From a virus, in IMG/VR virus record IMGVR_UViG_3300013130_001214, positions 1 to 41,212 of that record: 41,212 nt of DNA. One strand, 5' to 3'. The stretch's first letter is position 1, and every line of letters starts with the position of its first letter. Below the pieces are notes generated by a model. It made no database searches and was not told the origin of the DNA. It saw nothing but the letters and a program-made list of their open reading frames with translations. This document shows positions 19,780 to 39,649 of this stretch, piece by piece. A program made the translations under genes and the position numbers.

Positions 19780-20253
19780 ATGTCAGAAAAGAAGTTATCT
19801 ATTTTATGGCATTCTCCATATGATAAAGGAGTATTGGTTGGACTGTTACTTGGTGAGGGTAATGTATCTATTACATCACAAGGTAGAGGATGGTATACTC
19901 CAAGAATAACAATATGTAACACAGAAATAGAAATTATTAATTTAGCATCAAAAATTTTGAATAGAGCTGGTATAAGATATAGTTTTAGATGTATAGATTA
20001 CAGAAATAAATTAGGAAATAAACCATTATATAGAATAGATATTAAAGGCATTAAATCTGTATTGCCACTGTTAGAAACTCTAAGAGCTTCTCTAGTAGGA
20101 AGAAAAGAAAGATTAAATGATTTAGTAATAGAATTTAGTAGGAGCAGAATAAACCATATGTTAAAACCATATAATAAAAGAGAATTTGACATAATAAAAG
20201 AAATTAGGAGTTTAAATCCCAGAGGAGTAAATATAAAGGAGGGATGCCAATGA
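19780..20253 (+). CDS. LAGLIDADG homing endonuclease fused to a copied glycosyltransferase N-terminus
   Basis: The 157-residue product contains one LAGLIDADG motif (VLVGLLLGEGN, residues about 18-28), so it would act as a homodimer, and a C-terminal helix-turn-helix-like tail (NKREFDIIKEIRSLNPRGVN). Its first residues, KLSILWHS, are identical to the start of the next glycosyltransferase gene, while the codons differ at five of 24 bases, all synonymous. The endonuclease thus appears to have inserted just after the first codons of the transferase and to be translated from the old start signals, with the transferase start rebuilt downstream. Its stop overlaps the new ATG 20250. Confidence 0.8.
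   Translation: MSEKKLSILWHSPYDKGVLVGLLLGEGNVSITSQGRGWYTPRITICNTEIEIINLASKILNRAGIRYSFRCIDYRNKLGNKPLYRIDIKGIKSVLPLLETLRASLVGRKERLNDLVIEFSRSRINHMLKPYNKREFDIIKEIRSLNPRGVNIKEGCQ
20236..20243 (+). promoter_or_regulatory. Shine-Dalgarno for the glycosyltransferase start at 20250
   Basis: AAGGAGGG lies six bases before ATG 20250. It fixes this ATG as the true start of the transferase even though the first 17 codons are out of frame with the remainder. Confidence 0.6.
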
Positions 20254-22482
20254 GCACAAACTCTCATAAGTTATCAATACTATGGCACTCAGTTCGCCCC
20301 ATTTATAAGATGTTATGATGAAGAGACAGAGGTGCTAACGGAGAATGGATGGAAGAAGATCAAAGATGTCTTTATGGAAGAAAAGGTTCTTACCTACAAT
20401 AATGAAGATGAAACATTAGAGTATCAATTGCCAATCAATAAATTTGATTACCCATGCCAAGGATTTATGTATAGGCAAAAATCTAAATTCATTGATCTGC
20501 TAGTTACTCCTAATCATCAAATGCTAGTGCTAAGAAGGCAGAGAGATAACTCATGGAAACTAAAGAAGGTTGAGGCAAGAGACATCTTGAATAAGAGGGT
20601 TAAATACCTTAAAACTGGCAAGTGGCTAAACGGATATTCTCCAGAGAAAGTCGGTATCGAATATGGTAATGATGTTCAGTTTTCTAAGAGCGTGGACTTC
20701 AAGGATTTCTGCAAGTTTATGGGGTATTATCTATCAGAAGGATATGTTGATCATACTCCAATTAATGGGAACTACACTGTTGCCATATGTCAGAATGAAA
20801 CTAAGTTATATGAGATGGCGGAATCATTAAAGAAGATGACTGATAACAAAGTTTACTTTGTTGATAATAGAAAGGCATGTGTTAGGGACAAGGACCTATG
20901 GAAATACCTTAAGCAATTTGGCTATGCCTGGGAGAAACATGTTCCAGATATAATTAAGCAAGCTGATGTAGATTGCATAAAGATATTTTTGAATGCGTAT
21001 ATTGAGGGAGATGGAGGATTTAATGGCGATTCTCCATATATTCTTACTACTTCAATAAGGATGAGAGATGATATTCAAGAGATGGCTATAAAGGCTGGAT
21101 ATGATTCTGATTATTATGTTAATACTCTTAAAGGAAGAGAAGGAAATCTAGGAGTATCAAACTATGATTTGTGGAGAATAACTTTAAGCAAAGGCATTCC
21201 AAGAATAGTTAATAAAGAAAAGAAAACAGATTCCATAGTAAGTTTTGATGGGATGGTATATTGTCTAGAAGTTCCTAATCATAACTTAGTTATTAGGAGA
21301 CGTGGGAAATCTGTTATATGCGGTAATAGTGGCTATGGCAAGACTACTATGCATATATTATCAAGGCTTAAGAAATATGGTTATGGCGTAATATGTTCTG
21401 CATACTATGGAGTGGAACCAGGTGGCTCACTTATATATGAAGGATTTCCAGTGTTATCAAGTAAAGAAGGTCCATTCGGTATTAGTTCAGCAGCAAAGTT
21501 TAGTAAGCAATTCAACATTGACGTAGGAATACTCTTTACAGATTTTTGGGCATTTAGTGATTTTCCAAAAGTCATACCGAATGCTACTCTCTATGGTCCA
21601 ATGGACCATGTGAATTATTGTGAAGAAATATTGAATTTCACCAAAATGTATTATAAGATTATAGGACTGTGTAAATGGCAACAGAAGGAATTGCAGAAGG
21701 TTGGAATAAAATCAGATTACATTTATCATGGAGTAGACACTAAATTGTACGCTCCAACAATAGATAAAATTGAGATAAAAAAGAAATATAATATTCCAGA
21801 AGATGCCTTTGTAATAGGCACGGTTGCAGCTAACTCAGATAAGGAAGATAGGAAGTCACATGGAAGGTCAATGAAGGCGGTTAGGCACTTCTTAGACTCT
21901 AACCCAGATGTAAAGGAGAAGGATATAGTCTGGATATATCATACTGTACCCAATGATCCAAGGGGAATGCCACTTAGCTCAATATGCCACAAGTTCAAGC
22001 TTGACTCCATAATTAGGTTCATGAATCCAGCTATAGCCGATACAATGATTCCAGAAGAACAGTTAGCAGAACTTATGAGCATATTTGATGTTCACCTACT
22101 ATGTAGCAAGAGAGAAGGATTTGGAATGCCCATACTTGAAACAATGAGTTGTTCGGTTCCGAACATATGCCATAATTTCTCTAGCATGACAGAGCTAGTT
22201 CAGGGCAGAGGATGGTTATGTAAGAGTCTTGGAACTGATCTTAACTTAGAAACTACTCCAATAAATGCTGAAACTGCTTCTCCAGATGTATATAGTATTG
22301 CTGATTGTATTAAAGATGCTTATTTTGATGAAAATAAGAGAATAGGATTTGGAATGAAATCTAGAGAATTTGCTAAACAATATGATTGGGATATATTAGT
22401 AAAGGATCAGTGGGTGCCATTATTAGAAGATATTATAGAAGATTTAGGACCAAAATCATTAGATAAGAGGATGATACTTTAA
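20250..22482 (+). CDS. GT4-type glycosyltransferase with intein and +1 frameshift near the start
   Basis: ATG 20250 opens KLSILWHSVRP and then meets TGA within 23 codons, while the body continues in the +1 frame as PFIR, intein, SGYGKTTMHIL. Removing one C from the CCCC run at 20297-20300 restores WHSVRPFIR-SGYG, the normal GT-B N-terminal loop (W-H-S ... T/S-G-Y-G). The downstream 385 residues include HGVDTKLYAP, a nucleotide-sugar-binding REGFGMPILETMSC (E-x7-E) and a C-terminal helix, as in family GT4 retaining transferases. It would add sugars in the viral glycan pathway. The frameshift may be a sequencing error, a real mutation or +1 recoding on CCC-A; the coding quality afterwards suggests it is still selected. 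Confidence 0.75.
20311..21327 (+). mobile_element. Intein with LAGLIDADG endonuclease in the GT4 transferase
   Basis: The 339-residue insertion runs from Cys1 (CYDEETEVLTENGW) to CGN directly before extein Ser (SGYG). Block B is DLLVTPNHQML; endonuclease motifs are FMGYYLSEGY and NAYIEGDGGF; the C-terminal blocks are VYCLEVPNHNLVIRRRGK and VICGN. The penultimate residue is Gly instead of the usual His. It closely resembles NrdD inteins 2 and 5 along its whole length. Confidence 0.92.
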
Positions 22483-23315
22483 TGAAAGTAATGATTGGTA
22501 CAATGGTTAAGAACTCCGCTATGTTTCTTCCATCTTATTTTAATCTATTGCGATCTTTAACTTATCCAAAGAATAATATAAGAATAGTATTCATATATGG
22601 AAATTCTTCTGATAGAACATTAGAAATAATAAAAGAAGAAGAAGCCAAAGGTGATTTAGATATTTGTATATATTCTGAACAGAATGATCAGAATCTTAGA
22701 GTTGGTGGTGCTCAATTAGCTGCAAGTGCTTATAATGATTTTCAAAATGCAATGAAAGAAGATGAAGATTATTTTCTATTATTAGATTCTGATATTAAAG
22801 GAGCGCCAAGTAATTTAATAGAAGAACTTATTGCTGTAAATGCGGATATAGTTGCTCCATATCCCTGGTCTGAGGAACATAGACATTTTTATGATAATTG
22901 GATATTTAGAATTAATAACATAAGGTTCAGTCCAACTCATCCACCAGGAGAAGGATTAAAGTATCCAATAATAGTTGATTCTGTCGGGACATGTTTCTTA
23001 GCTAAGTCACATGTGTTTAAAGGAGTACAAATAGTTAATCCATATCCAAATTTACAATTCTGTAATAAGGCAAGAGAAATGAATTATATGGTTATTGCGT
23101 GTCCATATTTAGAAATTATACATATAGATATTGAAAAATTAGATCCTCCAATAATTCATAATCCACTTCCACAAGAATATGGATTCTATCCAAAAAATGG
23201 ATTTTTAGATAGTAGTAATTATCAACCCAGACGATTTATTCCAATTTCTAAAGAATTAATAAAAGAACAGGAGAAAGATTTTATGAACAATATTATGAGA
23301 GGAGAATGTAAATGA
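22482..23315 (+). CDS. GT-A glycosyltransferase (Anp1/GT2-like)
   Basis: The 277-residue product has a GT-A nucleotide-binding start (KVMIGTMVKNSAMFLPSYF), IVFIYGNSSDRTLEII for the diphosphate-side strand, and a D-x-D motif in YFLLLDSDIKGAP. A later DSVGTCFLAKSHVFKG and a His-rich EIIHIDIEKL are typical of Anp1/GT2-like acceptor sites. It has no membrane segment and so would act in the cytoplasm. It overlaps the stop of the preceding transferase by one base. From here to about 32.2 kb base composition looks more A/T-rich than upstream, perhaps a cassette gained as a block. Confidence 0.75.
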   Translation: MKVMIGTMVKNSAMFLPSYFNLLRSLTYPKNNIRIVFIYGNSSDRTLEIIKEEEAKGDLDICIYSEQNDQNLRVGGAQLAASAYNDFQNAMKEDEDYFLLLDSDIKGAPSNLIEELIAVNADIVAPYPWSEEHRHFYDNWIFRINNIRFSPTHPPGEGLKYPIIVDSVGTCFLAKSHVFKGVQIVNPYPNLQFCNKAREMNYMVIACPYLEIIHIDIEKLDPPIIHNPLPQEYGFYPKNGFLDSSNYQPRRFIPISKELIKEQEKDFMNNIMRGECK

Positions 23316-24478
23316 TACCAGATGAAATAGATTTCTTAATGAGAAGAGGAGATCATCCAAATGCAGAACTTAATACTATTGAAAAACAATTGGCTGAAAA
23401 AGCTTTTATGATGGTAAATACTTTACCGCAATTCGCAGAACTTGGATATAAAAGAACTTATAATTTTATGCATTTATTAACATTTTATGAATCAACAAAT
23501 CCATATATTATAAAATTAATGAATAAGTTAGAACCATATCCATGGTATATAGAAATGGAAATGACTCAGGGAATATGTCCATTAAGATGTAAAATGTGTG
23601 AATTAACATATTGGAATGAAGAGAAAATACAACTTACATTTGATAAATTTAAATATGTTATGGATCAATTTCCAGATCTTAAGTGGGCTGGAAATAATGC
23701 TCTTGGAGATCCATTTACTAATCCAGATTGCTGGAAGATATGGAAATACTTAGATGATAAGGATGTATGTCAAGAAATATATTTAACATGTTATTCATTA
23801 AATGAAGAAGATATGAAGAGATTTTTAGAGCTTAAAGGATTAGTATTTTTTAAAATATCATTTGATGCTGCTACTAAAGAAACATATGAAAAGATCAGAG
23901 TAAATTCTTCATTCGATAAAGTTATAAGAAATATAAAAAGATTTGATTATGAAAAAAGAAAACTTGGAAGATATTTTCCAGAGATACAGTTCCATTATAT
24001 AATAATGAAATCTAATATTGATGAAGCTGTAAAGTTTGTTGATTTTGTAGATTCTTTAGATGTTGATTGTAAAAGTATATGTTATTCTAGATTATTACAT
24101 AATTTCAAAGAAATAAATGATGAGTTCACAAATATTCCACAATCACTAGTAAAAGAAATAATAGCCAGAGGAAAAAGCAAAGGAATTAAAATTAATTTTT
24201 CATTGGATATAGAACCAACTAGACCAGCTAAAGATTGTTTAGCTTGGATGATGCCATATATATTTCCAGATGGTACTGTAATATCGTGTTGTTGTATGAA
24301 TGAACAGAATAGAAGAGACTGGCAAAGAGAAACTTCTATGGGCAATGTATTTAATACTCCATTTAGGAATATTTGGTATGGTGAAAAATATACAAAACTT
24401 AGACATTTATTATATGAAGATAAGCCCCTTGAAGCTCATCCAGTTTGTAATATTTGCAATATATATAAGGTGAAATAA
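23312..24478 (+). CDS. Radical SAM enzyme with C-terminal SPASM-like domain
   Basis: CPLRCKMCELTYW (residues about 90-102) is the C-x3-C-x2-C [4Fe-4S]/SAM motif. A Cys-rich C-terminus (ISCCCMNEQNRRDW, then HPVCNICNIYK) resembles a SPASM domain that holds extra clusters. The 388 residues fit the radical SAM/SPASM family that modifies peptides or sugars. ATG 23312 overlaps the previous stop (ATGA). The sugar-gene neighbours suggest a carbohydrate substrate, such as epimerisation or deoxygenation, but a peptide target cannot be excluded. Confidence 0.85.
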   Translation: MIPDEIDFLMRRGDHPNAELNTIEKQLAEKAFMMVNTLPQFAELGYKRTYNFMHLLTFYESTNPYIIKLMNKLEPYPWYIEMEMTQGICPLRCKMCELTYWNEEKIQLTFDKFKYVMDQFPDLKWAGNNALGDPFTNPDCWKIWKYLDDKDVCQEIYLTCYSLNEEDMKRFLELKGLVFFKISFDAATKETYEKIRVNSSFDKVIRNIKRFDYEKRKLGRYFPEIQFHYIIMKSNIDEAVKFVDFVDSLDVDCKSICYSRLLHNFKEINDEFTNIPQSLVKEIIARGKSKGIKINFSLDIEPTRPAKDCLAWMMPYIFPDGTVISCCCMNEQNRRDWQRETSMGNVFNTPFRNIWYGEKYTKLRHLLYEDKPLEAHPVCNICNIYKVK

Positions 24479-24480
24479 AA

Positions 24481-25476
24481 ATGAATTTATTCATAGAATT
24501 GAGTATGATATGCAATTTAAATTGTAAGTATTGTATAAGAAATGAGCTTACAGCAGAACAAAAAACTAGTTTTATGCCAATAAATGATGTTATTAACTTA
24601 ATAAATAAATTTGATCATTTGGAATCTATAAATATAATTGGATCTGGTGAACCATTTTGTTATCCATATTGGAATGAATTTGTAGAATATATTAAATTAA
24701 AACAAATTCGATTAACGATGACAACCAATGGCGTTTTATTAAACGATAAAAATATAGAATCTTTACCTAATAATTCTGTATTATATTTTTCTATAGATAG
24801 TTTGGATGATGAGAAAAATAAGATAACTAGAGGAATTGGATCATCTATAATCATAAATAATATTAAAAAATTAATTGAAAAAAGACAAGATATAAAAGTT
24901 GTAATTCAACCAGTTATTATAAAGGGATTTAAAGACGAAATTAATAAATTTATTAACTTACTAGATGAAATTAAAGCAGGATTCAGTCCAATATTGCCTA
25001 CATGTTATAGCAAAGAAATGTATGATGAATTATATCCAATAGAAGAAATAGATGATATTGTAAGAATAATAAAAGATGAATGTAATATAAGACAAATATA
25101 TACTAATGCAATATATTCTAAACCAACACTAGATATTTGTGTAGATCCGTTTAATATTATTTTTGTAGCTGTTAATGGAGATGTTTATCCATGTTGTTAC
25201 ATTTATTCAGCTAGACCATATATAGGAAAAACCAATGAAACATTTACAGAATATTATAATGGAGTAGAAGTAAAAGTGCCTGCTTATCAATATAAAATAG
25301 GGAATATTTATAGAGATGAAATAAATAGCTTATTGCACAGTGAAAGAATGAATAGTATAAGATTCAATATTTTAGCTACGCAAAAATCAGATTTTATGAA
25401 TAGAGATAAATTAAATTTGAATCATCCACATAAATATTGTAGGATATGTAGTAATAGATGGGGATGTAGTGGTTAA
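24481..25476 (+). CDS. Second radical SAM/SPASM enzyme
   Basis: CNLNCKYCIRNEL (about residues 12-24) is the cluster motif and lies at the very N-terminus. The C-terminal half holds VYPCCYIYSARPYIG and YCRICSNRWGC, a SPASM-like set of Cys. At 331 residues it is shorter than the previous radical SAM enzyme and only distantly similar, so the pair is not a recent duplication. GGTGA lies 10 bases before the ATG. Substrate unknown; it is likely to act with the adjacent transferases. Confidence 0.85.
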   Translation: MNLFIELSMICNLNCKYCIRNELTAEQKTSFMPINDVINLINKFDHLESINIIGSGEPFCYPYWNEFVEYIKLKQIRLTMTTNGVLLNDKNIESLPNNSVLYFSIDSLDDEKNKITRGIGSSIIINNIKKLIEKRQDIKVVIQPVIIKGFKDEINKFINLLDEIKAGFSPILPTCYSKEMYDELYPIEEIDDIVRIIKDECNIRQIYTNAIYSKPTLDICVDPFNIIFVAVNGDVYPCCYIYSARPYIGKTNETFTEYYNGVEVKVPAYQYKIGNIYRDEINSLLHSERMNSIRFNILATQKSDFMNRDKLNLNHPHKYCRICSNRWGCSG

Positions 25477-25478
25477 AA

Positions 25479-27602
25479 ATGGATAAAAATATAATGTTGA
25501 TACATCCATCATTTTATGTTAATGGTGGAGCAGAAAGGCAGATAGCTGAACTTTGTAATTATTTAACAGATAATAATTACAAAGTAACTATATTTACTGT
25601 AGACTCTATACCAGAATTTAGAAGATCACTTAAGGAAACTAGAATATGTAATTGTACGGATTTTAATACTCTTAGAGAAAGGGCATTGGTTAGAAGTACA
25701 TATTATCAGATAATTAATCCGCATAATCATCCAGCAGAACTGATTCTTTATCCTAGAAAGCATAAGATTATATGGCAATGTTTTCCAAATAATACCATAG
25801 TTTATGCAAATGAAAAACTGGATAGAATACAAAATATATCTATGAACAATATGTTATTATGCGATCAGAAGGTACAAAAACTATATAGTAGAAAATATAG
25901 GGGCAAACTAAAGATAATAAAACCATCATATTTAATGCCAATTAAAATTACTCCAGAACACCCAATTAAAATATTTAAAGCTAAAAGAATTAACAATAAA
26001 TGGAATATTATAGATGATGGCAATTGGGTGGAAGTTAAAAGAATTCCAGAAAGAACATTAACCACTAAATATTGCGTTGCGGTTCCCAAGATAAAAGATG
26101 AATTTGATTATTTGTTAGATTTAACTAAATATAGTAAAAGATCAGTTGATTGTAAATTTAAAGGTGTTATTACAGAAGACATTGCAGAATTATTAGGGTG
26201 GTACTTTGCGGAAGGTAGCGTTAACGGGGGTCATGTAGACTTTGCATTGAATATTAATGAAATTAATTACGCAAACAGAATATTATCTATAGCTAATTCC
26301 ATAGGGATAAATGGAAGGATAAATAAGATTCCAAAGAACAATTCGTTGGTGGTAAGAATAAACTCTACTTCGCTTGCAAGATTCTTAATAGAAAAAATTG
26401 GTCATAATGCCAATGATAAAATAGTTCCAGGTTTTATGTTTGGTGAAAGGAAGTCAATTATACAATCCTTTATTGACGCTATACAGAAAGGAGATGGCGA
26501 TATTAATATTAAACCAAGAAAGACTAAATACAGTGCAATGAAAAGAATAGGAATTAACAGTGAACTTGGCAGTAAAGGAATACAAATATTATTAATGAAG
26601 ATTGGTATAGTCTCTGGTTTATCTAGAAGAAAACAAAAAGAGAGCATGATTGGGGACAGATTAATTAAATCAGATGGTTATGAATATACATTGTATTGGA
26701 GCATAGATGGAAACTTTAACAATTATTTAGAAGATAATAACAATTACTATTTGCCAATTTCCAGGATAACAGAAGAAGATTATAATGGAACAGTGTATAA
26801 TTTAGAAACTACAAACAATTTCTATTGTGTACCATTCATAGTTCATAATTGTAATGAGCCTCCAGAAACTGTACTTAGGGGAGGCAAATTAAATGCTAGA
26901 GAAATAGAAATTGTTAAGGATCAAGTAGATAAAGCATTTGTTATTTCTGATTTTGATAAGCGGAGATTTATAGATACATATGGATTTGAACCAATTGTTA
27001 ATTATCCTGGCATAAGATATTCAATGTTTGCAGATGTTCCAAATATATCCAGAGATGATAAGGAAATTAGAATACTACAATTTGGATATTTCTGTTGGAC
27101 AAAAAATCAAATAAAAACAGTTGAGATATTTAATGAAGTTCTTAAATCTATACCCAATGCTATATTATACTTAGTTGGATATAACAAAGATCCATATTTT
27201 AACAAAGTAAAAGAGAAAATAGCAGAACTTGGAATAGTTGATAAAGTGCGTATTAATGGATATAATACATCCGATAAAGAGATAGTTAATCTGTACAAGT
27301 CAGTTGATATATTCATTAATCCAGTATTAGATCAGGGAGGATATGCTACTAGCTTTGAAGCTGTATCTTCTGGGTTGCCAACTGTTGTTTCTGATAAGTT
27401 TGTAGCTTCTAATTTATGTAAAGATCATAACTTAGCTGAAGTTAGTAAAATAGAGGATTTTGTAAGTGTAATATTATCTATAATAAATAACTTAGATAAA
27501 AATAAAGAAAAAATATCTAATAATAAGTTATGGATTAAAGATAATTTAACATGGAATAACTTTGGTAAAAAGTATGAGTCTGTAATAAGTGAATTGGTAT
27601 AA
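25479..27602 (+). CDS. GT4-type glycosyltransferase interrupted by an intein
   Basis: Without the 357-residue intein the protein has 350 residues. The N-terminus HPSFYVNGGAERQIAELCNYL is the GT-B/GT4 glycine-loop with its GGAE motif; the C-terminal domain shows ILQFGYFCWTKNQIKTVEIF, LVGYNKDPYF and SFEAVSSGLPTVVSD (E-x7-E nucleotide-sugar site). The intein lies in the linker IIWQ-CNEPPE, a conserved stretch of the family. It is a second retaining transferase of the cassette, with a different N-terminus and intein from the first. Start ATG 25479 is two bases after the previous stop. Confidence 0.88.
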   Translation: MDKNIMLIHPSFYVNGGAERQIAELCNYLTDNNYKVTIFTVDSIPEFRRSLKETRICNCTDFNTLRERALVRSTYYQIINPHNHPAELILYPRKHKIIWQCFPNNTIVYANEKLDRIQNISMNNMLLCDQKVQKLYSRKYRGKLKIIKPSYLMPIKITPEHPIKIFKAKRINNKWNIIDDGNWVEVKRIPERTLTTKYCVAVPKIKDEFDYLLDLTKYSKRSVDCKFKGVITEDIAELLGWYFAEGSVNGGHVDFALNINEINYANRILSIANSIGINGRINKIPKNNSLVVRINSTSLARFLIEKIGHNANDKIVPGFMFGERKSIIQSFIDAIQKGDGDINIKPRKTKYSAMKRIGINSELGSKGIQILLMKIGIVSGLSRRKQKESMIGDRLIKSDGYEYTLYWSIDGNFNNYLEDNNNYYLPISRITEEDYNGTVYNLETTNNFYCVPFIVHNCNEPPETVLRGGKLNAREIEIVKDQVDKAFVISDFDKRRFIDTYGFEPIVNYPGIRYSMFADVPNISRDDKEIRILQFGYFCWTKNQIKTVEIFNEVLKSIPNAILYLVGYNKDPYFNKVKEKIAELGIVDKVRINGYNTSDKEIVNLYKSVDIFINPVLDQGGYATSFEAVSSGLPTVVSDKFVASNLCKDHNLAEVSKIEDFVSVILSIINNLDKNKEKISNNKLWIKDNLTWNNFGKKYESVISELV
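25779..26849 (+). mobile_element. Intein with LAGLIDADG endonuclease in the second GT4 transferase
   Basis: Cys1 (CFPNNTIVYANEKL) to VHN before extein Cys (CNEPPE). Block B is PIKITPEHPIKI; endonuclease motifs are LLGWYFAEGS and DAIQKGDGDI; block F reads TVYNLETTNNFYCV. Splice residues are classic (Cys1, His-Asn, Cys+1), like the intein of the DHH protein and unlike the Gly-Asn group. Confidence 0.92.
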
Positions 27603-27604
27603 AA

Positions 27605-28678
27605 ATGAAAATTAACATAATAACAACGACAATAAATAGCAATAAAATATTTGATTCGTTGATTAATAACATTCTAAAATATAATCATGAACAATACACT
27701 AAATTAATTGTAGTAGCAGATAATAAAACTCCTATATATGTACCCAATACATCTAAAGTAAATATAGAATGGTATAGTCCTAAAATGCAATTATATTGGC
27801 TTGAGGAACATAAGTTAAAATATATAAATGATATAATTCCAGAGAATGATCCTAGACGTAGGAACTTTGGTTATCTTGTATCTATTATTTATGATCCAGA
27901 CATCATAATAGTAATGGATGATGATAATATTCCATTTGATAACATAGATTTTGTTGGTAATCATATAAAATGTTTAAGTAAGCATATTGAAAATATAGTT
28001 GGCTCAACTAATAAAATAGTTAATCAATGTAATTTTCTTGATTGTAATTATCATGTCTATACTAGAGGATATCCAATATCAGAATATTTATTTGATGATT
28101 ATTTAATTAAATCAAATAATAATTATAAATCAATATTAAATGAGGGACTTTGGTATAATAAACCAGATGTTGATGCTACATTTAATATAGCATATGAAGA
28201 CTTAGTTAGTAGCGGTATGAAGGTTAATGGAAATTTTATATTGGATAAAGATAATTATATGCCAATAAATACTCAGAATGTATCATATACTAATGAAATA
28301 TCAAAGATATTTTGGAATATATGTCTACAAGAACGAGGCTTTAAAAGATATGATGATATATGGAATGGCATTATACTTAATAAAATAATAAATGTTATGA
28401 ATAAACATAGAATATCATTTGGTAATCCTATGGTTAATCATAATAGAAATTCACATAATTATAATGCAGATCTTAGAGATGAATTTCTTGGAATCATATA
28501 TAATTCAAAATTGTTTGAGACAATTAAGAATATTGATATAGATGGTTCTTCATATGAAGAAATGTATTTGTGTCTAGCTAAAAAACTTAGTGAATCTACA
28601 ATAAAAGAATTTGTAGATATAGGAAAAAGAATGAATAGATGGTTAGATATAGTATATTTATTAGATAAATATACGTAA
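27605..28678 (+). CDS. GT75-like protein (reversibly glycosylated polypeptide / UDP-arabinopyranose mutase type)
   Basis: Landmarks of the plant RGP/UAM family appear in order: VMDDDNIPFDN (the D-D-D metal motif), YTRGYPISEY (family RGYPFS, with the Arg that is glycosylated in plants), GLWYNKPDVDAT (family GLWLNIPDYDAPT), and RYDDIWNGIILNKI (family RYDDMWAGW). The 357-residue length is usual. Plant members interconvert UDP-arabinopyranose and UDP-arabinofuranose. A mutase would give the virus a furanose sugar donor; the alternative is a bona fide transferase. Such a gene in an archaeal virus is uncommon as far as I know. It lies two bases after the previous stop. Confidence 0.75.
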   Translation: MKINIITTTINSNKIFDSLINNILKYNHEQYTKLIVVADNKTPIYVPNTSKVNIEWYSPKMQLYWLEEHKLKYINDIIPENDPRRRNFGYLVSIIYDPDIIIVMDDDNIPFDNIDFVGNHIKCLSKHIENIVGSTNKIVNQCNFLDCNYHVYTRGYPISEYLFDDYLIKSNNNYKSILNEGLWYNKPDVDATFNIAYEDLVSSGMKVNGNFILDKDNYMPINTQNVSYTNEISKIFWNICLQERGFKRYDDIWNGIILNKIINVMNKHRISFGNPMVNHNRNSHNYNADLRDEFLGIIYNSKLFETIKNIDIDGSSYEEMYLCLAKKLSESTIKEFVDIGKRMNRWLDIVYLLDKYT

Positions 28679-28699
28679 TTATTATTGGCGCAATTGATA

Positions 28700-29977
28700 A
28701 TGACAAAGATTTTATTAGTTTATCCTGGAAAGGGAGTATATTTTGAACAACCTCCAATTGGATTATTGCAATTGGCTGGATATACTATACAAAATGGTTA
28801 TGATGTAACTGTGAGATTTAGACCATTAAATGAAGAATATGAAACTATAATAGATAATTATGATATTATAGGAATATCTGGCACTACACAAGTAATAGAG
28901 GATGGATATTGGTGTGCTGATCTAGCAAGATCTAGAGGAAAATTTGTAGTTATGGGTGGACCACATGTAAGTGCTCTTCCAGAAGAAGCAATAAAACATT
29001 GTGATGCTGTTGTAATTGGAGAAGGAGAGAAGACATTTATAGATATAATAAAGGAACGGAAGAAAGGAATATTTAATGGAGACATCTTAGATAATTTAGA
29101 TGAATTGCCATATATACCATGGGAATTAATAAATCATGAATATTTTTTTGATGTTAATAAGAGAAATCCAATATCTATGTCTACTTTCATTCCATCCAAT
29201 GAGAAAGTAAGTTATATCATTTCATCTAGAGGATGTCCATTTAGATGTAAATTTTGTTATAATTCAAAAAGAACATCTCAAATAAGATATCAGAGCGTAG
29301 ATAGAGTAATAAATGAAATATTATATACAATTGATAAATACAAAATTAATAATTTTGTATTTTTAGAAGATAATTTTATTTCCAATAAAAATAGAGCTAT
29401 AGAATTTTGTAATAAAATAATTGCTAATGGCATAGATATAATTTTTGGAATAAATGCAAGAGTAGATAATATTGATGAATCTATAATAAGAATACTAAAT
29501 AGTGCTGGATGTTTACAAATAGCATTTGGATTAGAATCAGTTGAACAGTCAATATTAGATTATTATAATAAAAATATAAATGTTGATCAGATGATTAAAG
29601 CTATAAGTTTATGTAATAAAAATGGAATAATATCACAAGGAAGTTTTATAATAGGACATAAAGATTCTATTTATACATTAAAGAAAATGCAATATTTTAT
29701 ATGCGATAATCCTCTTGATGGAGGAATAGGAATTTGTTATCTCACTCCATTTCCAGGAAGTATGATATATGATGAATTAAAGGAATCTCAGAATTTTAAT
29801 TGGAATAATTTAAAATATGATAATATAACAATACCATTTGAAAGTAGAAAAAATCAAATAGTGGAAATAGCAGAATTTACTAGACATTTAGCTATGTATT
29901 TAGTTATAGGCAGAGAATATTCTAGAATAATGAAATTTAATAGACTTAAAAAATTAAAGGAAATATATAAAAAATGA
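28700..29977 (+). CDS. B12-binding-domain radical SAM enzyme (first of two)
   Basis: I prefer ATG 28700 (MTKILLVYPGKG) to TTG 28685 because it begins directly at the first strand of the cobalamin-binding domain. That domain continues with DIIGISGTTQVIEDG and VVMGGPHVSALPEEAI, VVIGEGE. The radical SAM motif is RGCPFRCKFCYNSKR near residue 180, followed by VFLEDNFIS and FGINARVDN. These enzymes use methyl- or adenosylcobalamin and SAM for methylations or ring rearrangements (BchE, HpnJ and related groups). The substrate is unknown; with glycosyltransferases around, a methylated or branched sugar or a lipid carrier is plausible. Confidence 0.88.
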   Translation: MTKILLVYPGKGVYFEQPPIGLLQLAGYTIQNGYDVTVRFRPLNEEYETIIDNYDIIGISGTTQVIEDGYWCADLARSRGKFVVMGGPHVSALPEEAIKHCDAVVIGEGEKTFIDIIKERKKGIFNGDILDNLDELPYIPWELINHEYFFDVNKRNPISMSTFIPSNEKVSYIISSRGCPFRCKFCYNSKRTSQIRYQSVDRVINEILYTIDKYKINNFVFLEDNFISNKNRAIEFCNKIIANGIDIIFGINARVDNIDESIIRILNSAGCLQIAFGLESVEQSILDYYNKNINVDQMIKAISLCNKNGIISQGSFIIGHKDSIYTLKKMQYFICDNPLDGGIGICYLTPFPGSMIYDELKESQNFNWNNLKYDNITIPFESRKNQIVEIAEFTRHLAMYLVIGREYSRIMKFNRLKKLKEIYKK

Positions 29978-31242
29978 AAATATTGCTAGTTAATCCTTCA
30001 GCTAAAGCTGCATCTGATTCTCCTCCAGTTGGAATAGCCATATTGGCTTCAATATTAGAATTAGAAGGATATGATGTAAAAATAATTGATAGAGCTGCTG
30101 GTCATGACTTTATAAAAGAATTTAATAGTTTTTATCCAGATGTTGTTGGTGTTACTGGTACTACACAAGCAGCGCCAGAAACATATGCTTGTGCTGATTA
30201 TTCAAAGAAGAAAGGGTGTTTTACTATAATTGGAGGGATACATGCTTCTATAATGCCAGAAGAAGCAATGAAATATGCTGATTGTGTAGTTATAGGAGAA
30301 GGAGAAATAGTATTATCGTCAATAATAAAAAATAAAACTAGAGGAATAGTAAGTGGTAAGCCAGTTATAGATCTTAATTCATTACCATTGCCAGCTTATC
30401 ATTTATTAGATATGGCTTACTATACATCTTTATTGCAAAGAAGCTTTATGAATTTTGCATCTATAGCACCATCATGGTTTAAATTAGGAACCATATTATC
30501 ATCAAGGGGATGTACTCATAACTGCTTCTTTTGTTATAATTCATTTAGAACTTTGCCAATAAGATTTAGATCAGCTGAAAAAGTAATAGAGGAAATGAAG
30601 TTTCTAATAGATACTTATGAAGTTGGAGCTATATTTTTTGTTGAGGATAATTTCTTCTTTCATAAGAAGAGAACTATGAAAATATGTGAATTAATTAAAC
30701 AAGAAAAGATAGATGTGATATGGGGAGGAAATTCTAGGGTAGACTGTATAGATAAGGAAGTATTAGAATATTCAAAGAAGAATGGATGTAAACAAGTAAC
30801 ATTTGGATGGGAATCTGGAAGTCAGAGGATATTAGATTTACTTGAAAAGAAAGTAACTGTGGCACAAAATGATGAATCCATAAAGCTATGCAATGAAGTT
30901 GGACTGAATGCATCTGGAACTGTTATGATAGGTAATCCAACAGAAACAATTGATGAAATAAATATGACTGAATCATTTTTGAAGAGAAATAAAATAACTG
31001 GTGGAATAGGTATATGTACAACAACTCCATATCCAGGTAGTAAGATGTGGCAATGGTGTATTGATAATAATAGAATTCCATCTAATTGGAATATTAATAG
31101 ATATTCTGAATTAGATTTTCATCATTTGCCAATAAAACTTACAGATATTCCAGATAATATATTATTAGCTAAGATTAATGAATTAGTAAATTATGCAATA
31201 AATACATTTAGATTGATGGAGAATGAGAGATGGTCAAGATAA
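29974..31242 (+). CDS. B12-binding-domain radical SAM enzyme (second of two)
   Basis: The 422-residue product is a diverged tandem copy of the preceding enzyme: GVTGTTQAAPETYACAD, IIGGIHASIMPEEAM and VVIGEGE match its B12 domain, and RGCTHNCFFCYNSFR, FFVEDNFFF and WGGNSRVDC match its radical SAM core. The later MIGNPTETIDEIN and TTPYPGSKMW are typical of the BchE-like group. Two enzymes of the same type side by side suggest successive steps on one substrate. Start ATG 29974 overlaps the previous stop (ATGA). Confidence 0.88.
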   Translation: MKILLVNPSAKAASDSPPVGIAILASILELEGYDVKIIDRAAGHDFIKEFNSFYPDVVGVTGTTQAAPETYACADYSKKKGCFTIIGGIHASIMPEEAMKYADCVVIGEGEIVLSSIIKNKTRGIVSGKPVIDLNSLPLPAYHLLDMAYYTSLLQRSFMNFASIAPSWFKLGTILSSRGCTHNCFFCYNSFRTLPIRFRSAEKVIEEMKFLIDTYEVGAIFFVEDNFFFHKKRTMKICELIKQEKIDVIWGGNSRVDCIDKEVLEYSKKNGCKQVTFGWESGSQRILDLLEKKVTVAQNDESIKLCNEVGLNASGTVMIGNPTETIDEINMTESFLKRNKITGGIGICTTTPYPGSKMWQWCIDNNRIPSNWNINRYSELDFHHLPIKLTDIPDNILLAKINELVNYAINTFRLMENERWSR

Positions 31243-32992: not shown

Positions 32993-35900
32993 ATGGTAGA
33001 TAGTTCCATCAAAGAGTATTTAGATAATTTATCATGGCGCAATAAAGAGAATGCTAACACTAATGAATCATTCTCTAATATGACCAATTATGTGGCTGGT
33101 AAAATATTGGCTCTTGATTTCCTAGATTCTATCCCAGAGGAGCTTAGGAAGGCTCATCTTAACGCTATAATACATATACATAACCTGGAAACAGGAGGCT
33201 ATGTTCCGTACTCCTATAACCCAAAGACTCCACTAATAATAAAGAGAGATAATTGTAAAATGATAGTAGCTATGGAAGATGTCTCTATAGGAGATTATGT
33301 AATTGATAAAGCTGGAGTTGCATGGACTAAAATCACTGATAAAATAGAACATAATTCGCATTGTAACTTGCTAAGAATTAAATTCAGCAATGGCTCTATA
33401 ATAGAGGTAACAGAAGATCATCCTATTATAATGTGGCATCATAACAGAACTAAATTAGCTAGAGATATTATAGTTGGAGACTTAGTACAAGGATGCAACA
33501 TTAGTAGTAGAGACTTTAGTTTTAGTAGCTATGAATTAAATAGAAAACTTAGCTGGATAATAGGAATGTACATTGCAGAAGGAAATAGAAGTAGTTCTTC
33601 ATATGAGATATCCCAAAATAATGTTGATATAGAAACAAAATTAATGAAGTACCTTGAAGATATGTCAATCCATTACTGGAAGCATCACAGTGAACATAAA
33701 ACCTCATATTTCCTATATAACAAGCAGTTAGAATTAGATTGCTTAAGTACCATAAAGGATTATTCAGAGAATAAGAACATTCCATATTTACCATTGTCAC
33801 TACAAACATTCTTTGATATAATAAGCGGAATATTTGATGGAGATGGATGCAGAACAAACTCTAAGTTTGCTACACAATTTAAGATATCTAGCAAATCCTT
33901 TGAGTTGGTACAGCAGATTAAATTAGTATTTGATGTGGCTAGAATAGTTTCTTCTATAAGATTTAACAGTGATAATATCTATGAAATCAACTTTTATCTG
34001 CTTCCCCATCAAGTACCACTGTTTAGAGAAAGCATGAAGATAAATATGGAGCCAATTAAATTCTTTAAAGGAAGTAAAAATCTTGGGTACTTCAGAAAAA
34101 AAGTTAGAGTAATTAAAATAAGTACAGTTCCATATGTCAATAATAAAGTGATGGATATTACTACTGAAACCTCAACCTTTTGTTCCATGGGACTAAAACT
34201 GCATAATTGCGCTGGCCATAATCTGAAGATGCTATTAACTGAAGGAATGAAGACTCCTTCCATTAACTCTAGACCGGCAAAACATTTTAACAGTATAGTT
34301 GATCAAGTGATGAACTGGCTTTATTGTGCTCAAATGGAGTTTGCTGGTGCACAGTCATTCTCAGATTTTGATTCTTTACTCGCTCCTTTCATTAGGAAGG
34401 ACAAGTTAAAGTATTGTGATGTTAAGCAACAAATACAGAAGTTGGTATATAACCTTAATTTCTGTTACGATGAACAAACAGAAGTACTTACTTCTAATGG
34501 ATTCAAACTAATAAGAGATGTAAATGCCAAAGATATGGTTCTTACATTAAATATGGACACTGATGAATTACAATGGCAATTTACAGATGGAAATGTGTAT
34601 AAATTCAATTACAATGGATATATGTATAATTTTACTCATAAAAACATGGACTTGATGGTAACTCCAAACCATAGAATTGTAATATTACACAAGGATAAAT
34701 GGATATTCAAAGAGGCAAGACATCTGGAGAATAAACGATATACACTGCCAATTACTGGAAAATGGTATGCTAAAGATAAGGATTATTTCTACTTGCCAAT
34801 GATTGAAAAGGCAAAGCATGATACACAGTCTAGGCATGTAGAGAGAATACAGATGGATGATTTTCTAAGATTGCTTGGTATATTCTTATCTGAAGGATGT
34901 ACTGTGTGGAGAGAGAAAAAAGGACATTATTACTTAGATATAGCTCAACAGAAGTGCAAGATTAGAGATGAGATAAAAGATCTATTAGATAGATTACCAT
35001 TCAACTATGTAGAACATTATAGAGGATTCCATGTATATAGTAAACAACTAGCAAATTATTTTAGACAGTTTGGTCATGCGTATGACAAATTTATACCATC
35101 AGAGTTTAAGAATCTTTCAATAAGACAGTTAAATATATTATTAGAATGGTTATTCAAGGGAGATGGCTATGTTGGAGAATGTGGAGAAGCGTATTATACC
35201 GTATCAAAGAAACTTAGAGATGATGTGCAAGAATGTTTGATAAAGGTTGGAAATGGAACTAATTGGTCCTATATGAACAACAATAAGATATTTAGAATAG
35301 CTAAGAAGAAGAGGAATGTTGTAACATTATACAGAAAGAACAATCTGGATATAGTTCCATATAATGGGAAAGTATATTGTCTAAAAGTACCAAATGGAAA
35401 TTTTGTTGTAAGGAGAAATGGAAAGATTATAATTTGTGGCAATACTATGAGAGCTTCTAGTCAGTGTTATGTTGAAGGAACAGAAGTATTAACTAAAAGA
35501 GGCTGGGTTGATTTTAGAGAACTAAAAATGTCAGATATAGCAATGACAATAAATACTAATACAAGAAAACTTGAGTGGAAGATACCAAATAGAATAGTAG
35601 CATATGATTATAATGATGAGATTATTACATTAGAAAATCATAGAACTGAACAAAGTGTTACACACAAACATAAAATACTTAGATATATACCAAATACAAA
35701 TACTATGGTGTTACAAGATATTGATGAAACATTAAATTATAAAACTCCGTTACAGCTTCCAATATGTTTTGATAGTAACTTTGAAGAAATAGATGTTATA
35801 GACGATGAAATTAAATTATGGGCATGGATATTATCAGAAGGTAGTAATAGATATACAATAACACAAAGTATAGTTAATGAAGAAAATGCTACAAGAATTA

Positions 35901-38900
35901 AATCTATTTTATGTAATTTAGGTATAAAGTATAATGATAAAATTAGGCAGCATGGAGGATTTGAAGGAAGTCAACCAAGTCATTTAATATCCTTTAGTTT
36001 ACCATTGAAAGGAATGCCATTTAATCCGATGGACTTATCTAAAAGACAAGCAAAGTTATTTTTGGATGAGTTTAGGAAAGGAGATGGAGATAAATCACGA
36101 TTTAGGCTTTATAATAAAAATACAGAAATAGTTGATATATTAACGGCTCTGGCCATCATAGCTGGATATTCATTTCACATGTTAGCTAAAAGAAGTAATG
36201 GAGTGCAGCCAATATCTATTATTACGGATTTGAAAGATAGAGTTTATAATCTAAAGAAGAAATTCACTAGGTATAATGGCAAGGTATATTGCATTACAAC
36301 AGATAATAATACGGTAGTTACTAGAATTAATGGCAAACCAGCCTTTTCTGGCAATACACCATTCACTAACTTAACATTAAATTATTGTATACCAAAGTTT
36401 CTAGGTGATGAAGAAGCTATTATTGGAGGGGTGCCTACTGGAATAAAGTATTCTGATTGCACCAATGAAGTGTTAATGATTGACAGGGCAATCAATGAAG
36501 TTATGAGTGAAAGAGATCCTCAGGGTCTACCATTTAGCGTTATTGGAGATACAATAATTCCAGTTATAAATGGAAATAATGAAATTAAGTTTGTTAAAAT
36601 AAAGGAATTATTTAATAAAACAGATATTAAATACGGAGAATCAGAGATATGTAAACTTAATTATTTAAGGACATGGTCTTTGGATTCAAATAATAAAATG
36701 GTTATATTTCCACTAAAAGAGGTTTCTAGACATAAATTTAAAGGAAAATTAATGAAGATAAGAATAGAAGGTGGGGCAGAGGCAATTGTTACTCCTAATC
36801 ATAGCTTATTTACTCAAGATGAAGAATTTAAGATAAAGGAAATAAAGTCTGTGGATATAAAGAAAAATGATGTTATTATTATAGCCAACAAATTAAGGTT
36901 TGATGAATTTAAATCTTCATTTAAAATTAAGAATATAGATAAAGCCTTCTTAATGGGATATATTTTTGGAGATGGATATACTAAATTTCATCATGTACAA
37001 TTATGCGCATCTAGTAGAGAAGAGGCTGATATCATCCAAGAGAAATTTAGAAGAATATATGGATTTAGTTTAATAGAAAAAGAACATGAAAATTATATTG
37101 AGCTTAGTAAACATGTTAGGTGGGTGGCTAAAGATATACAGAAATATATTGGAAGTAGTCCTAATAAAATAATAAAGAATTGGGTATTTGAATCTAATGA
37201 AGTGTCAAAGGCTTTCTTTGATGGATTAAATTTAGCTGATGGACATAGAAGTATGGACTGCAAAGTATATAAAAACATAGGCTGCCATAATGAGACTAAT
37301 AAATTTAAATTGATATTATTATCTCTTAGGTTAGGATTTTCTATTTCATATGGGAATGATTATATACTAACTGAGAAAAAGAATTTTATATATAAAAAAG
37401 ATCAATTATTTAGGAAGAATAGTAGAAGAGGTTATAAATTAATAGAGAAATACCCAGAGCTTAATTCTTTATATGAAGATGATATTACTCCAGTTAGGGT
37501 TGAGTTAGTAGAGGAAATAGAATATGATGATTATGTTTATGATATATCAGCAAATGGAACATTTATTGATATACAAAGTATTTTGTATAAGAATACGTTC
37601 CCCATTTTAACAGTGAACCTGAATGGAAAGTTCCCTTGGAATGATCCAGCCATAGATTTCCTATGGGACAACTGTTCAGATATTGGAAGCTACTACTTCA
37701 TGAATTATATTGGATCTGGAATATCTGAAGACATAGTTCGTAGTATGTGCTGTAGACTCAATCTTAGCCTAGAAGAGTTTGATGGCCCTAAAGGAATGTG
37801 GAACTGTTATTCTAATGACACTGAAATACTTACAATTAATGGATGGAAACTGTTTAAGAATCTGTTGAAGACAGATAAAGTGGCTACATTAGAAAATGAT
37901 GAATTAAAATTTGTATTGCCAAGCGAATATATAACAACTGACTATAAAGGAAAGATGTTGCATCAGAAAACTAAATTCATAAATCTCCTAGTGACTCCAA
38001 ATCATAGATTGTGGGTAAAGAAGAGAAAGAGCAAAAACTTTGAGTTTATACCAGCTGAAGAGGCTCCTCGCCATATTTCATATAGCAGAACTGCTAAATG
38101 GAATAGTAATGAAGAGAGATATTTTGTATTGCCTCCAATTAAAATTAATAGAAAAAATCAGATTATATATAATAAAATATTAATGGATAATTGGCTTGCG
38201 TTCTTTGGAATATGGACTGCTGAAGGATGTACTATAAGAGACCATTATAAAGTTGTAATAAGTCAACATAAAAAAGAGAATTTGGATACTATAGCAAACG
38301 TAATAAGAAAATGTGGGTTCCATTATAACTACTCTGTGAAAAATGGAGATTTTGTTATAAGGAGCAAACGACTATTTGAATACCTTAAGCAATTTGGACA
38401 TTCAGAAAATAGATTTATTCCAATGGAGATTAAATGTCTATCATCTAGACAACTAAATATATTATATAATTATCTAATGTTAGGGAATGGTTCAATCGGT
38501 AAAGATGGTAAATGTTATTACACTAAATCAAAATCTCTGGCTGATGATTTCCAAGAAATATTATTGAAAATAGGATTATCTGGTCAAATTAAATATAGCG
38601 AACAGAAATTTACTGGTAGAAATAGGCTTAGTACCACTAAGATATATAGGGTTTGTATTAGTAATAAAAAGTCTATTAGAGTTAATTCTGTTAAGGATAA
38701 TAGAGAATGGATAGATTATGATGGGAAAATATATTGTGTAACTGTTCCAAGTCATTTACTATATGTTAGAAGAGAGGGTAAACCAGTTTGGTGTGGGAAC
38801 ACGGGTCAGGGAACAGGAAGCCTGGGAGTTGTTACAATTAATCTTCCAAGACTAGCATATGATTGCAGAGGAAAAGACCTAAGTTTTCTATTTGAAGAAT

Positions 38901-39649
38901 TAGATAACAGATTGCAAATGGCATTAGATATACTTAGAATACGTAAGTCTAGAATACTAAAGTACCAGAATAGGATGATGCCATTTAACATTATGAATGG
39001 ATGGTCAATGAAGAACTACTTCATGACTATAGGGGTGATTGGACTCAATGAAATGTGTCTTAATTATAGTGGCAGATCATTAGTTGAAGACACTTCTTTT
39101 GTAACTGAAGTACTTACTCATATCAGAAATTGGATATCATCAACAAAGAAGGAAACTAAAGAGTTAATTAATCTTGAAATGGTTCCAGGGGAAGGATGTA
39201 GCTATAGATTAGCTAAAATTGATAGAAGCAATAACAGTAATATACATTCTCTTGGAGGAGACGTACCATACTATTCTACGTTATTAATACCAGGAGTATA
39301 CGATATTGATATAATATCTAAGGTTGAGATAGAAGAGAATATTCTTCCATTATTCACTGGAGGCACAATATTTAGAGCATTCATTGGAGACAAGAGACCA
39401 AGCATTGGAAGCACAAGGTCATTTATTAATATGCTTGCTAAATCAAAGATACCATACTTTGACATGACATCAACGTATTCAATATGCACAAAAGATGGGT
39501 CAACTGAGAGAGGAGTGCATACAAACTGCTCTAAATGTGGAAGTAACATGGAAGTGTACTCTAGAGTAGTTGGATACTATAGGCCTGTATCTAAGTGGAA
39601 TCTAGGTAAGGTAGCTGAGTTTCATGATCGTAAATATATAAACATCTAA
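32993..39649 (+). CDS. nrdD: Anaerobic (class III) ribonucleoside-triphosphate reductase with five inteins
   Basis: The five exteins join into about 577 residues of NrdD: AIIHIHNLETGGYVPY-CAGHNLKMLL, then AGAQSFSDFDSLLAPF, VYNLNF-TMRASSQ-TPFTNLTLNY, GLPF-TFPILTVN, the catalytic-thiyl Cys region SMCCRLNLS, and MWN-TGQGTGSLGVVTINLPR. The C-terminus has SICTKDG, a NCSKCG zinc pair and the glycyl-radical motif RVVGYYRPV (Gly 25 residues from the end). It reduces ribonucleotides to deoxyribonucleotides without oxygen, feeding viral DNA synthesis. There is no N-terminal ATP cone, as in phage T4. The activase NrdG is not seen in the window. The start is ATG 32993 from the Shine-Dalgarno. All five inteins must splice for activity. 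Confidence 0.95.
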   Translation: MVDSSIKEYLDNLSWRNKENANTNESFSNMTNYVAGKILALDFLDSIPEELRKAHLNAIIHIHNLETGGYVPYSYNPKTPLIIKRDNCKMIVAMEDVSIGDYVIDKAGVAWTKITDKIEHNSHCNLLRIKFSNGSIIEVTEDHPIIMWHHNRTKLARDIIVGDLVQGCNISSRDFSFSSYELNRKLSWIIGMYIAEGNRSSSSYEISQNNVDIETKLMKYLEDMSIHYWKHHSEHKTSYFLYNKQLELDCLSTIKDYSENKNIPYLPLSLQTFFDIISGIFDGDGCRTNSKFATQFKISSKSFELVQQIKLVFDVARIVSSIRFNSDNIYEINFYLLPHQVPLFRESMKINMEPIKFFKGSKNLGYFRKKVRVIKISTVPYVNNKVMDITTETSTFCSMGLKLHNCAGHNLKMLLTEGMKTPSINSRPAKHFNSIVDQVMNWLYCAQMEFAGAQSFSDFDSLLAPFIRKDKLKYCDVKQQIQKLVYNLNFCYDEQTEVLTSNGFKLIRDVNAKDMVLTLNMDTDELQWQFTDGNVYKFNYNGYMYNFTHKNMDLMVTPNHRIVILHKDKWIFKEARHLENKRYTLPITGKWYAKDKDYFYLPMIEKAKHDTQSRHVERIQMDDFLRLLGIFLSEGCTVWREKKGHYYLDIAQQKCKIRDEIKDLLDRLPFNYVEHYRGFHVYSKQLANYFRQFGHAYDKFIPSEFKNLSIRQLNILLEWLFKGDGYVGECGEAYYTVSKKLRDDVQECLIKVGNGTNWSYMNNNKIFRIAKKKRNVVTLYRKNNLDIVPYNGKVYCLKVPNGNFVVRRNGKIIICGNTMRASSQCYVEGTEVLTKRGWVDFRELKMSDIAMTINTNTRKLEWKIPNRIVAYDYNDEIITLENHRTEQSVTHKHKILRYIPNTNTMVLQDIDETLNYKTPLQLPICFDSNFEEIDVIDDEIKLWAWILSEGSNRYTITQSIVNEENATRIKSILCNLGIKYNDKIRQHGGFEGSQPSHLISFSLPLKGMPFNPMDLSKRQAKLFLDEFRKGDGDKSRFRLYNKNTEIVDILTALAIIAGYSFHMLAKRSNGVQPISIITDLKDRVYNLKKKFTRYNGKVYCITTDNNTVVTRINGKPAFSGNTPFTNLTLNYCIPKFLGDEEAIIGGVPTGIKYSDCTNEVLMIDRAINEVMSERDPQGLPFSVIGDTIIPVINGNNEIKFVKIKELFNKTDIKYGESEICKLNYLRTWSLDSNNKMVIFPLKEVSRHKFKGKLMKIRIEGGAEAIVTPNHSLFTQDEEFKIKEIKSVDIKKNDVIIIANKLRFDEFKSSFKIKNIDKAFLMGYIFGDGYTKFHHVQLCASSREEADIIQEKFRRIYGFSLIEKEHENYIELSKHVRWVAKDIQKYIGSSPNKIIKNWVFESNEVSKAFFDGLNLADGHRSMDCKVYKNIGCHNETNKFKLILLSLRLGFSISYGNDYILTEKKNFIYKKDQLFRKNSRRGYKLIEKYPELNSLYEDDITPVRVELVEEIEYDDYVYDISANGTFIDIQSILYKNTFPILTVNLNGKFPWNDPAIDFLWDNCSDIGSYYFMNYIGSGISEDIVRSMCCRLNLSLEEFDGPKGMWNCYSNDTEILTINGWKLFKNLLKTDKVATLENDELKFVLPSEYITTDYKGKMLHQKTKFINLLVTPNHRLWVKKRKSKNFEFIPAEEAPRHISYSRTAKWNSNEERYFVLPPIKINRKNQIIYNKILMDNWLAFFGIWTAEGCTIRDHYKVVISQHKKENLDTIANVIRKCGFHYNYSVKNGDFVIRSKRLFEYLKQFGHSENRFIPMEIKCLSSRQLNILYNYLMLGNGSIGKDGKCYYTKSKSLADDFQEILLKIGLSGQIKYSEQKFTGRNRLSTTKIYRVCISNKKSIRVNSVKDNREWIDYDGKIYCVTVPSHLLYVRREGKPVWCGNTGQGTGSLGVVTINLPRLAYDCRGKDLSFLFEELDNRLQMALDILRIRKSRILKYQNRMMPFNIMNGWSMKNYFMTIGVIGLNEMCLNYSGRSLVEDTSFVTEVLTHIRNWISSTKKETKELINLEMVPGEGCSYRLAKIDRSNNSNIHSLGGDVPYYSTLLIPGVYDIDIISKVEIEENILPLFTGGTIFRAFIGDKRPSIGSTRSFINMLAKSKIPYFDMTSTYSICTKDGSTERGVHTNCSKCGSNMEVYSRVVGYYRPVSKWNLGKVAEFHDRKYINI
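33212..34207 (+). mobile_element. NrdD intein 1 (332 aa, Ser1, LAGLIDADG)
   Basis: Inserted in VPY-CAGHN. Begins with Ser1 (SYNPKTPLIIKRDN) rather than Cys and ends LHN before Cys+1. Block B is EVTEDHPIIMW; endonuclease motifs are IIGMYIAEGN and SGIFDGDGC. Block F is VMDITTETSTFCSMG. The boundary is set by the conserved NrdD sequence PYCAGH. Confidence 0.85.
34463..35443 (+). mobile_element. NrdD intein 2 (327 aa, Cys1, LAGLIDADG, Gly-Asn end)
   Basis: Inserted in YNLNF-TMRASS. Begins CYDEQTEVLTSNGF and ends IICGN before Thr+1. Block B is DLMVTPNHRIVI; endonuclease motifs are LLGIFLSEGC and EWLFKGDGYV, both with acidic residues. It shares long stretches with intein 5 and with the GT4 intein, such as YFRQFGHAYDKFIP. 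Confidence 0.92.
35465..36355 (+). mobile_element. NrdD intein 3 (297 aa, Cys1, LAGLIDADG, Gly-Asn end)
   Basis: Inserted in ASSQ-TPFTN, only seven extein residues after intein 2. Begins CYVEGTEVLTKRGW and ends FSGN before Thr+1. Block B is QSVTHKHKIL; endonuclease motifs are LWAWILSEGS and DEFRKGDGD. It is the shortest of the set and more diverged than inteins 2 and 5, though the VYCITTDNNTVVTRINGKP end is similar. Confidence 0.9.
36536..37594 (+). mobile_element. NrdD intein 4 (353 aa, Ser1, LAGLIDADG, Lys-Asn end)
   Basis: Inserted in GLPF-TFPIL. Begins SVIGDTIIPVINGN, the opening typical of archaeal DNA polymerase inteins, and ends ILYKN before Thr+1, with Lys in place of the penultimate His. 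Block B is AIVTPNHSLFT; endonuclease motifs are LMGYIFGDGY and DGLNLADGHR. It belongs to a different lineage from the other NrdD inteins. Confidence 0.9.
37805..38800 (+). mobile_element. NrdD intein 5 (332 aa, Cys1, Gly-Asn end, endonuclease probably impaired)
   Basis: Inserted in GMWN-TGQGTG. Begins CYSNDTEILTINGW and ends VWCGN before Thr+1. Block B is NLLVTPNHRLWV. The first endonuclease motif is FFGIWTAEGC; the second reads YLMLGNGSIG, with Asn where the metal-binding Asp is expected. Protein-splicing residues look intact. Confidence 0.92.

Follow-up and report, generated by a model that had tools for sequence, protein, structure and literature searches.

The window, the whole 41,212-nucleotide stretch of viral DNA analysed here, contains a class III ribonucleotide reductase (NrdD) gene interrupted by five inteins (a–e). 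We consider it very probable that these represent independent invasions by LAGLIDADG homing inteins, each of which is spliced out so that a functional NrdD is restored. The gene forms a single ORF of 2218 codons (32993–39649) with no stop in its translation; at the 32% GC of the window, a stop-free run of this length rules out chance. It comprises 577 extein residues and 1641 residues of intein, the latter making up about three quarters of the gene (Table 1). These figures had been given in a first-pass annotation of the DNA, and are exact to the residue. The ATG at 32993 agrees with the start of the NrdD of a related virus (L172).

Table 1. Extein segments and inteins of the interrupted NrdD gene (window coordinates).
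Feature	Coordinates	Strand	Description
NrdD extein segment 1	32993..33211	+	73 aa, ends Tyr73 just before the catalytic Cys; gapless relative to L172
Intein a	33212..34207	+	332 aa; Ser1, C-terminal HN, +1 Cys74; two LAGLIDADG motifs, with E and D
NrdD extein segment 2	34208..34462	+	85 aa
Intein b	34463..35443	+	327 aa; Cys1, GN, +1 Thr159
NrdD extein segment 3	35444..35464	+	TMRASSQ, 7 residues between inteins b and c
Intein c	35465..36355	+	297 aa; Cys1, GN, +1 Thr166
NrdD extein segment 4	36356..36535	+	60 aa
Intein d	36536..37594	+	353 aa; Ser1, KN, +1 Thr226
NrdD extein segment 5	37595..37804	+	70 aa; MCCR motif inside
Intein e	37805..38800	+	332 aa; Cys1, CGN, +1 Thr296
NrdD extein segment 6	38801..39649	+	282 aa + stop; finger loop, RVVGYYRPV glycyl-radical motif

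Joined, the six extein segments matched the NrdD profiles PF13597 (Pfam, 376 bits) and TIGR02487 (NCBIfam, 328.0 bits, cut-off 326.35). With the unspliced ORF, the NrdD matches in both databases came in pieces, with intein and LAGLIDADG domains between them. In an alignment using Cys79 of T4 and Cys125 of T. maritima as the reference catalytic Cys, the catalytic residue corresponds to Cys74, the MCCR motif to residues 276–279, and the glycyl-radical Gly to Gly553 within RVxGY. Judged from its sequence, the ORF is a class III (NrdD) ribonucleotide reductase with an MCCR motif. The predicted ligated product would contain junction-spanning peptides, for example YNLNFTMRASSQTPFTN.

The junctions read GGYVPY/S...HN/CAGH (a), YNLNF/C...GN/TMRASSQ (b), RASSQ/C...GN/TPFTN (c), GLPF/S...KN/TFPI (d) and GMWN/C...GN/TGQGTGS (e). 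All five inserts contain the complete set of class 1 intein motifs, namely Cys or Ser at position 1, a block-B TxxH, a terminal Asn, and a Cys or Thr at +1. The penultimate residue is His in a, Gly in b, c and e, and Lys in d. The GN ends do not indicate a defect, because a phage intein with a penultimate Gly has been reported to splice, and replacement of this Gly with His slows its splicing (PMC5050341). Some phage inteins with a penultimate Gly have been shown to splice. Class 3 (WCT) chemistry is not supported for the Cys1/GN inteins, as Cys1 is present and there is no Trp at block B position 12.

Each insert gave at least a weak match to Hint/intein or LAGLIDADG profiles. Profile support was strongest for intein d (Intein_splicing, 1e-18, above the Pfam cut-off). 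Inteins a and b passed with LAGLIDADG_3 and fell below the cut-off with Intein_splicing, giving moderate to weak support for a (LAGLIDADG_3, 7e-7; Intein_splicing, 1e-5, 25.7 bits against a cut-off of 35.8), and moderate support for b. Inteins c and e were the weakest by profile, matching as LAGLIDADG or Hint fragments, and e passed with LAGLIDADG_3 only. The AlphaFold model of intein c, built with 21 sequences (pLDDT 89.7), found its best solved matches in Foldseek among the intein homing endonucleases TliVMA, PhoVMA, PI-SceI and PI-PfuI, and intein c is confidently predicted to adopt a Hint fold with an inserted endonuclease domain. A single-sequence model of intein a (pLDDT 34) was discarded, and since its profile match is also weak, this intein is identified by its motifs and by the empty site in relatives. 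Both LAGLIDADG catalytic acids are kept in inteins a, b, c and d. In intein e, the second acid is replaced by Asn (GNG, not GDG), so its endonuclease is probably dead.

The intein boundaries are settled by natural empty sites in the relatives L172, L012 and L064, against which removal of the inserts restores an uninterrupted homologue in frame. L172 (IMGVR 3300014913_000806; the whole contig is L260) encodes an NrdD extein 62% identical to the joined extein of the window; the alignment is continuous across all five junctions, its sole gap being a single residue elsewhere. L172 contains an intein at site b only, 53% identical to intein b, and is empty at sites a, c, d and e. All five sites are empty in L012 (3300033156_000231), with 47.5% extein identity to the window, and in L064, whose contig stops before d and e, sites a and b are empty and the only intein is at c (47% identical). 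Uninterrupted, more distant NrdD sequences spanning all five sites are present in an Oceanotoga phage and a human faecal phage.

L260 and the window belong to one virus family, with portal, methylase, glycosyltransferase and nucleotidyltransferase genes in common, and for L012 and L064 the genes in common are those for the polymerase, portal and protease. The allele series runs from no intein in L012, through b in L172 and c in L064, to a–e in the window. Scans for close relatives with the unaligned extein, DNA polymerase and portal gave no useful matches. The L172 extein natively has Thr at the +1 positions of b, c, d and e as well, so insertion needs no extra substitution. A need for an altered +1 residue was rejected, because L172 has Thr at its intein-free site e; in relatives further removed, Ser, Ala, Phe or Met occurs at +1.

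An intein profile search and an alignment of the joined exteins with NrdD had been proposed as checks in the first-pass annotation. Both identify the inserts as inteins, with the relatives ungapped at the junctions, and not as ordinary NrdD domains, L172 and L012 being without them. The profile and motif matches agree with the empty sites, and bear out its claim of five inteins in one anaerobic ribonucleotide reductase gene.

By alignment, site a lies between the equivalents of Tyr124 and the catalytic Cys125 of T. maritima NrdD (Tyr73 and Cys74 here), and site e falls where the finger loop begins (T. maritima residues 351–364). With Tyr73 parted from the catalytic Cys74 and an intein at the finger-loop start, splicing is predicted to be required for a working enzyme, as had been proposed. 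A conserved motif had also been claimed at every junction. This is correct for the named residues, with site a adjoining an invariant Cys, but not for local conservation, which was no higher at the five sites than at random positions (p about 0.12–0.46 for several window sizes). When ten viral NrdD sites were pooled, conservation was significant at wider windows only (p about 0.002–0.008).

To place the inteins, a maximum-likelihood tree of 38 sequences was constructed. Intein b grouped with the b-site intein of L172 (support 100/100), intein c with the c-site inteins of L064, L055, L048 and L078 (100/99), and intein e with L173, an intein of an unrelated gene (97/94). Inteins a and d fell outside on long branches, and their placing is unsure. 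The intein of the first glycosyltransferase in the window grouped with others, in a clade apart from b, c and e. Duplication of one intein inside the virus was rejected, because b, c, e and the glycosyltransferase intein are in different clades. The most plausible reading is that the five inteins arrived separately out of a pool shared among viruses, and are not internal copies. The earlier count of at least three lineages was right in that several are present, but three is too low, as the tree gives five separate acquisitions.

Inteins b, c and e and the first glycosyltransferase intein belong broadly to a Cys1/GN lineage that is frequent in phage genes, and intein a has distant similarity (24%) to an intein of an Eggerthella phage NrdD. 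An unrelated Cys1 HNH-type intein is present at site a in L025 and L056, and therefore this site has been invaded more than once. L078 (8316–9248) has a c-family-related intein whose insertion point is one residue further upstream than site c and whose last residue is Gln, not Asn.

We propose that LAGLIDADG homing inteins entered the NrdD gene in five separate events, and that translation would yield a single precursor of about 2218 residues. In each intein, Cys1 or Ser1 would start an N–S or N–O acyl shift, the +1 Cys or Thr would receive the branched intermediate, and the terminal Asn would then cyclise. The six extein pieces, one of seven residues, would thereby be ligated into the 577-residue enzyme. 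The inteins would be maintained in two ways: their endonucleases would insert copies into vacant alleles in related viruses, and loss of splicing would cost a virus its dNTP synthesis. Homing invasion with faithful splicing would account for three features: occupancy is sporadic, the extein is intact, and the endonuclease motifs have been preserved.

Sites b and c are separated by 7 extein residues, placing their DNA homing targets 21 bp apart, from which ordered splicing and a mutual effect on homing could follow. The splicing of all five inteins might then be interdependent, with b and c setting the order and blocking or enabling each other's homing, and an ordered programme limiting NrdD. 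We regard such interdependence as unlikely.

Gating of the dNTP supply by redox or temperature had been suggested in the first-pass annotation. The inteins would then act as a post-translational switch, with oxidation, temperature or another signal slowing splicing. Conditional splicing is known, for example in mycobacterial DnaBi1, in which, on exposure to H2O2, the catalytic Cys enters a disulphide bond (PMC6195587), and in the present gene Cys1 occurs in three of the five inteins, while intein a takes the catalytic Cys74 as its +1 nucleophile. However, occupancy varies among close relatives (0, 1, 1 and 5 inteins), and an apparently conserved extra Cys, third from the end in inteins b and e, is Ser in the L172 b orthologue. 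Glycyl-radical enzymes are sensitive to oxygen in any case, and redox control of the precursor would add little on top of this. The sequence contains no pointer to gating; the sporadic occupancy and the two LAGLIDADG acids kept in four of the five inteins, as in mobile elements, fit selfish elements better. A switch is thus quite improbable.

Very improbable, because the 2218-codon frame is intact and free of stop or frameshift, is a dispensable and decaying NrdD in which inteins pile up under relaxed selection. The large intein share of the gene would suit decay, and Campylobacter phage nrdA has been suggested to be degenerating while propagating inteins (PMC3653736). No gene for the NrdG activase was recognised among the scanned window genes, which also points this way; the contig may be a fragment, and nrdD without nrdG is common in phages (PMC3653736). 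Against decay, Cys74, MCCR and the glycyl-radical motif are present, the alignment with L172 has its only gap, of one residue, outside the junctions, and none of the five inteins lacks a splicing motif. An assembly chimera, or ordinary NrdD insertions taken for inteins, has a negligible probability: the sequence does come from one metagenome contig (virus record), but all six extein pieces keep the reading frame and follow the order seen in L172 and L012, the inserts contain intein domains and motifs, intein c is modelled as an intein-endonuclease, and inteins at the b and c sites are found again in other, independent contigs.

Some observations count against invasion with faithful splicing: the weak profile match of intein a, the lack of a recognised NrdG gene among the scanned window genes, and a sign that this contig is not free of decay or sequencing error, in the first of two neighbouring intein-bearing glycosyltransferase genes. 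In that gene, at about 20285–20310, a short homopolymer immediately preceding the intein contains a one-base frameshift, which is either a sequencing error or a real lesion; L260 and L261 are intact at this point.

To investigate the occurrence of interrupted NrdD genes, 77 viral NrdD loci were examined. About 20 contained at least one large insert, at sites 73, 158–165, 277, 302, 117, 428 and others. The maximum among the other surveyed viral NrdD genes was three inteins per gene, in L074 (4848–8876), with inserts near sites 117, 277 and 302. Two of these three are Cys1/GN inteins of small size, with no room for a complete endonuclease. Across 148 genomes from a single phylum, the one to which a Woesearchaeota genome belongs, NrdD was nearly always uninterrupted, with a few genes split once and none split several times.

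Trichodesmium erythraeum RIR1 is an aerobic-type ribonucleotide reductase. It also has several inteins in one ribonucleotide reductase gene, four according to Liu 2003 (as cited in PMC1635734 and PMC4649490), but it belongs to a cellular cyanobacterium, and has group II introns in addition to the four inteins, whereas the gene in the window is a viral anaerobic NrdD with five. Haloarchaeal MCM genes, with up to four inteins (PMC3972481, PMC10643990), similarly show stacked inteins in one replication gene and sporadic multi-site occupancy, with LAGLIDADG in the case studied. MCM is a host helicase, however, and its closest listed sites are 14 residues apart (401 and 415), compared with 7 for b and c. 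No published case of more than four inteins per gene was found in the open-licence literature, and five is provisionally the most recorded in one gene, one above the published maximum found.

Inteins in phage NrdD are known from Clostridium phage c-st, Lactococcus phage 949 and Jug phages (PMC3653736, PMC12363816). These phages and Eggerthella phage EL753P1 resemble the present virus in having inteins or intein-like inserts in NrdD, but the reported inserts are single, putative or fragmentary, and none has five clean inteins. Corynebacterium phage P1201, mycobacteriophage thymidylate synthase and Lak phage inteins share the Cys1/Gly-Asn ends and the broad lineage of b, c and e, but reside in other host genes, with about 25–29% identity. 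Every insert is of a known kind, and the whole is an extreme case of a known kind.

The allele series (none, b, c and all five) within one virus family offers a handle on how inteins accumulate, and also bears on the competition of neighbouring homing sites and on the shortest extein between two inteins. Several new penultimate-Gly inteins become available for splicing work, and the ribonucleotide reductase of probable archaeal viruses joins the intein hot spots. The window is likely from an archaeal tailed virus, because its RadA and family-B polymerase have their best matches in the phage collection among haloarchaeal tailed viruses (22–26% identity). Rfam and tRNA scans of the window gave no matches.

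Three further inteins are present in the window, in a DHH-like phosphoesterase gene (1165–2379) and two glycosyltransferase genes (20311–21327 and 25779–26849), bringing the total to 8 inteins and 2742 aa, about 20% of the 41.2 kb. In the first glycosyltransferase, the intein lies near the N-terminus (SGYG). The same glycosyltransferase in L260 (5121–7412, minus strand) contains an intein towards the C-terminus (INAE/C...GN/TAM), and each gene is empty at the intein site of the other. A free-standing LAGLIDADG-like ORF (19780–20253) starts with MSEKKLSILWHS, a near-copy of the N-terminus of the following glycosyltransferase, as if it were the remnant of an insertion or duplication. Two adjacent Vsr/DUF559-like endonuclease ORFs (11839–12471 and 12472–12822), directly behind the protease gene, are possibly free-standing homing endonucleases. 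Two SPASM radical SAM genes and two B12-binding radical SAM genes are found among the glycosyltransferase genes at 23312–31242.
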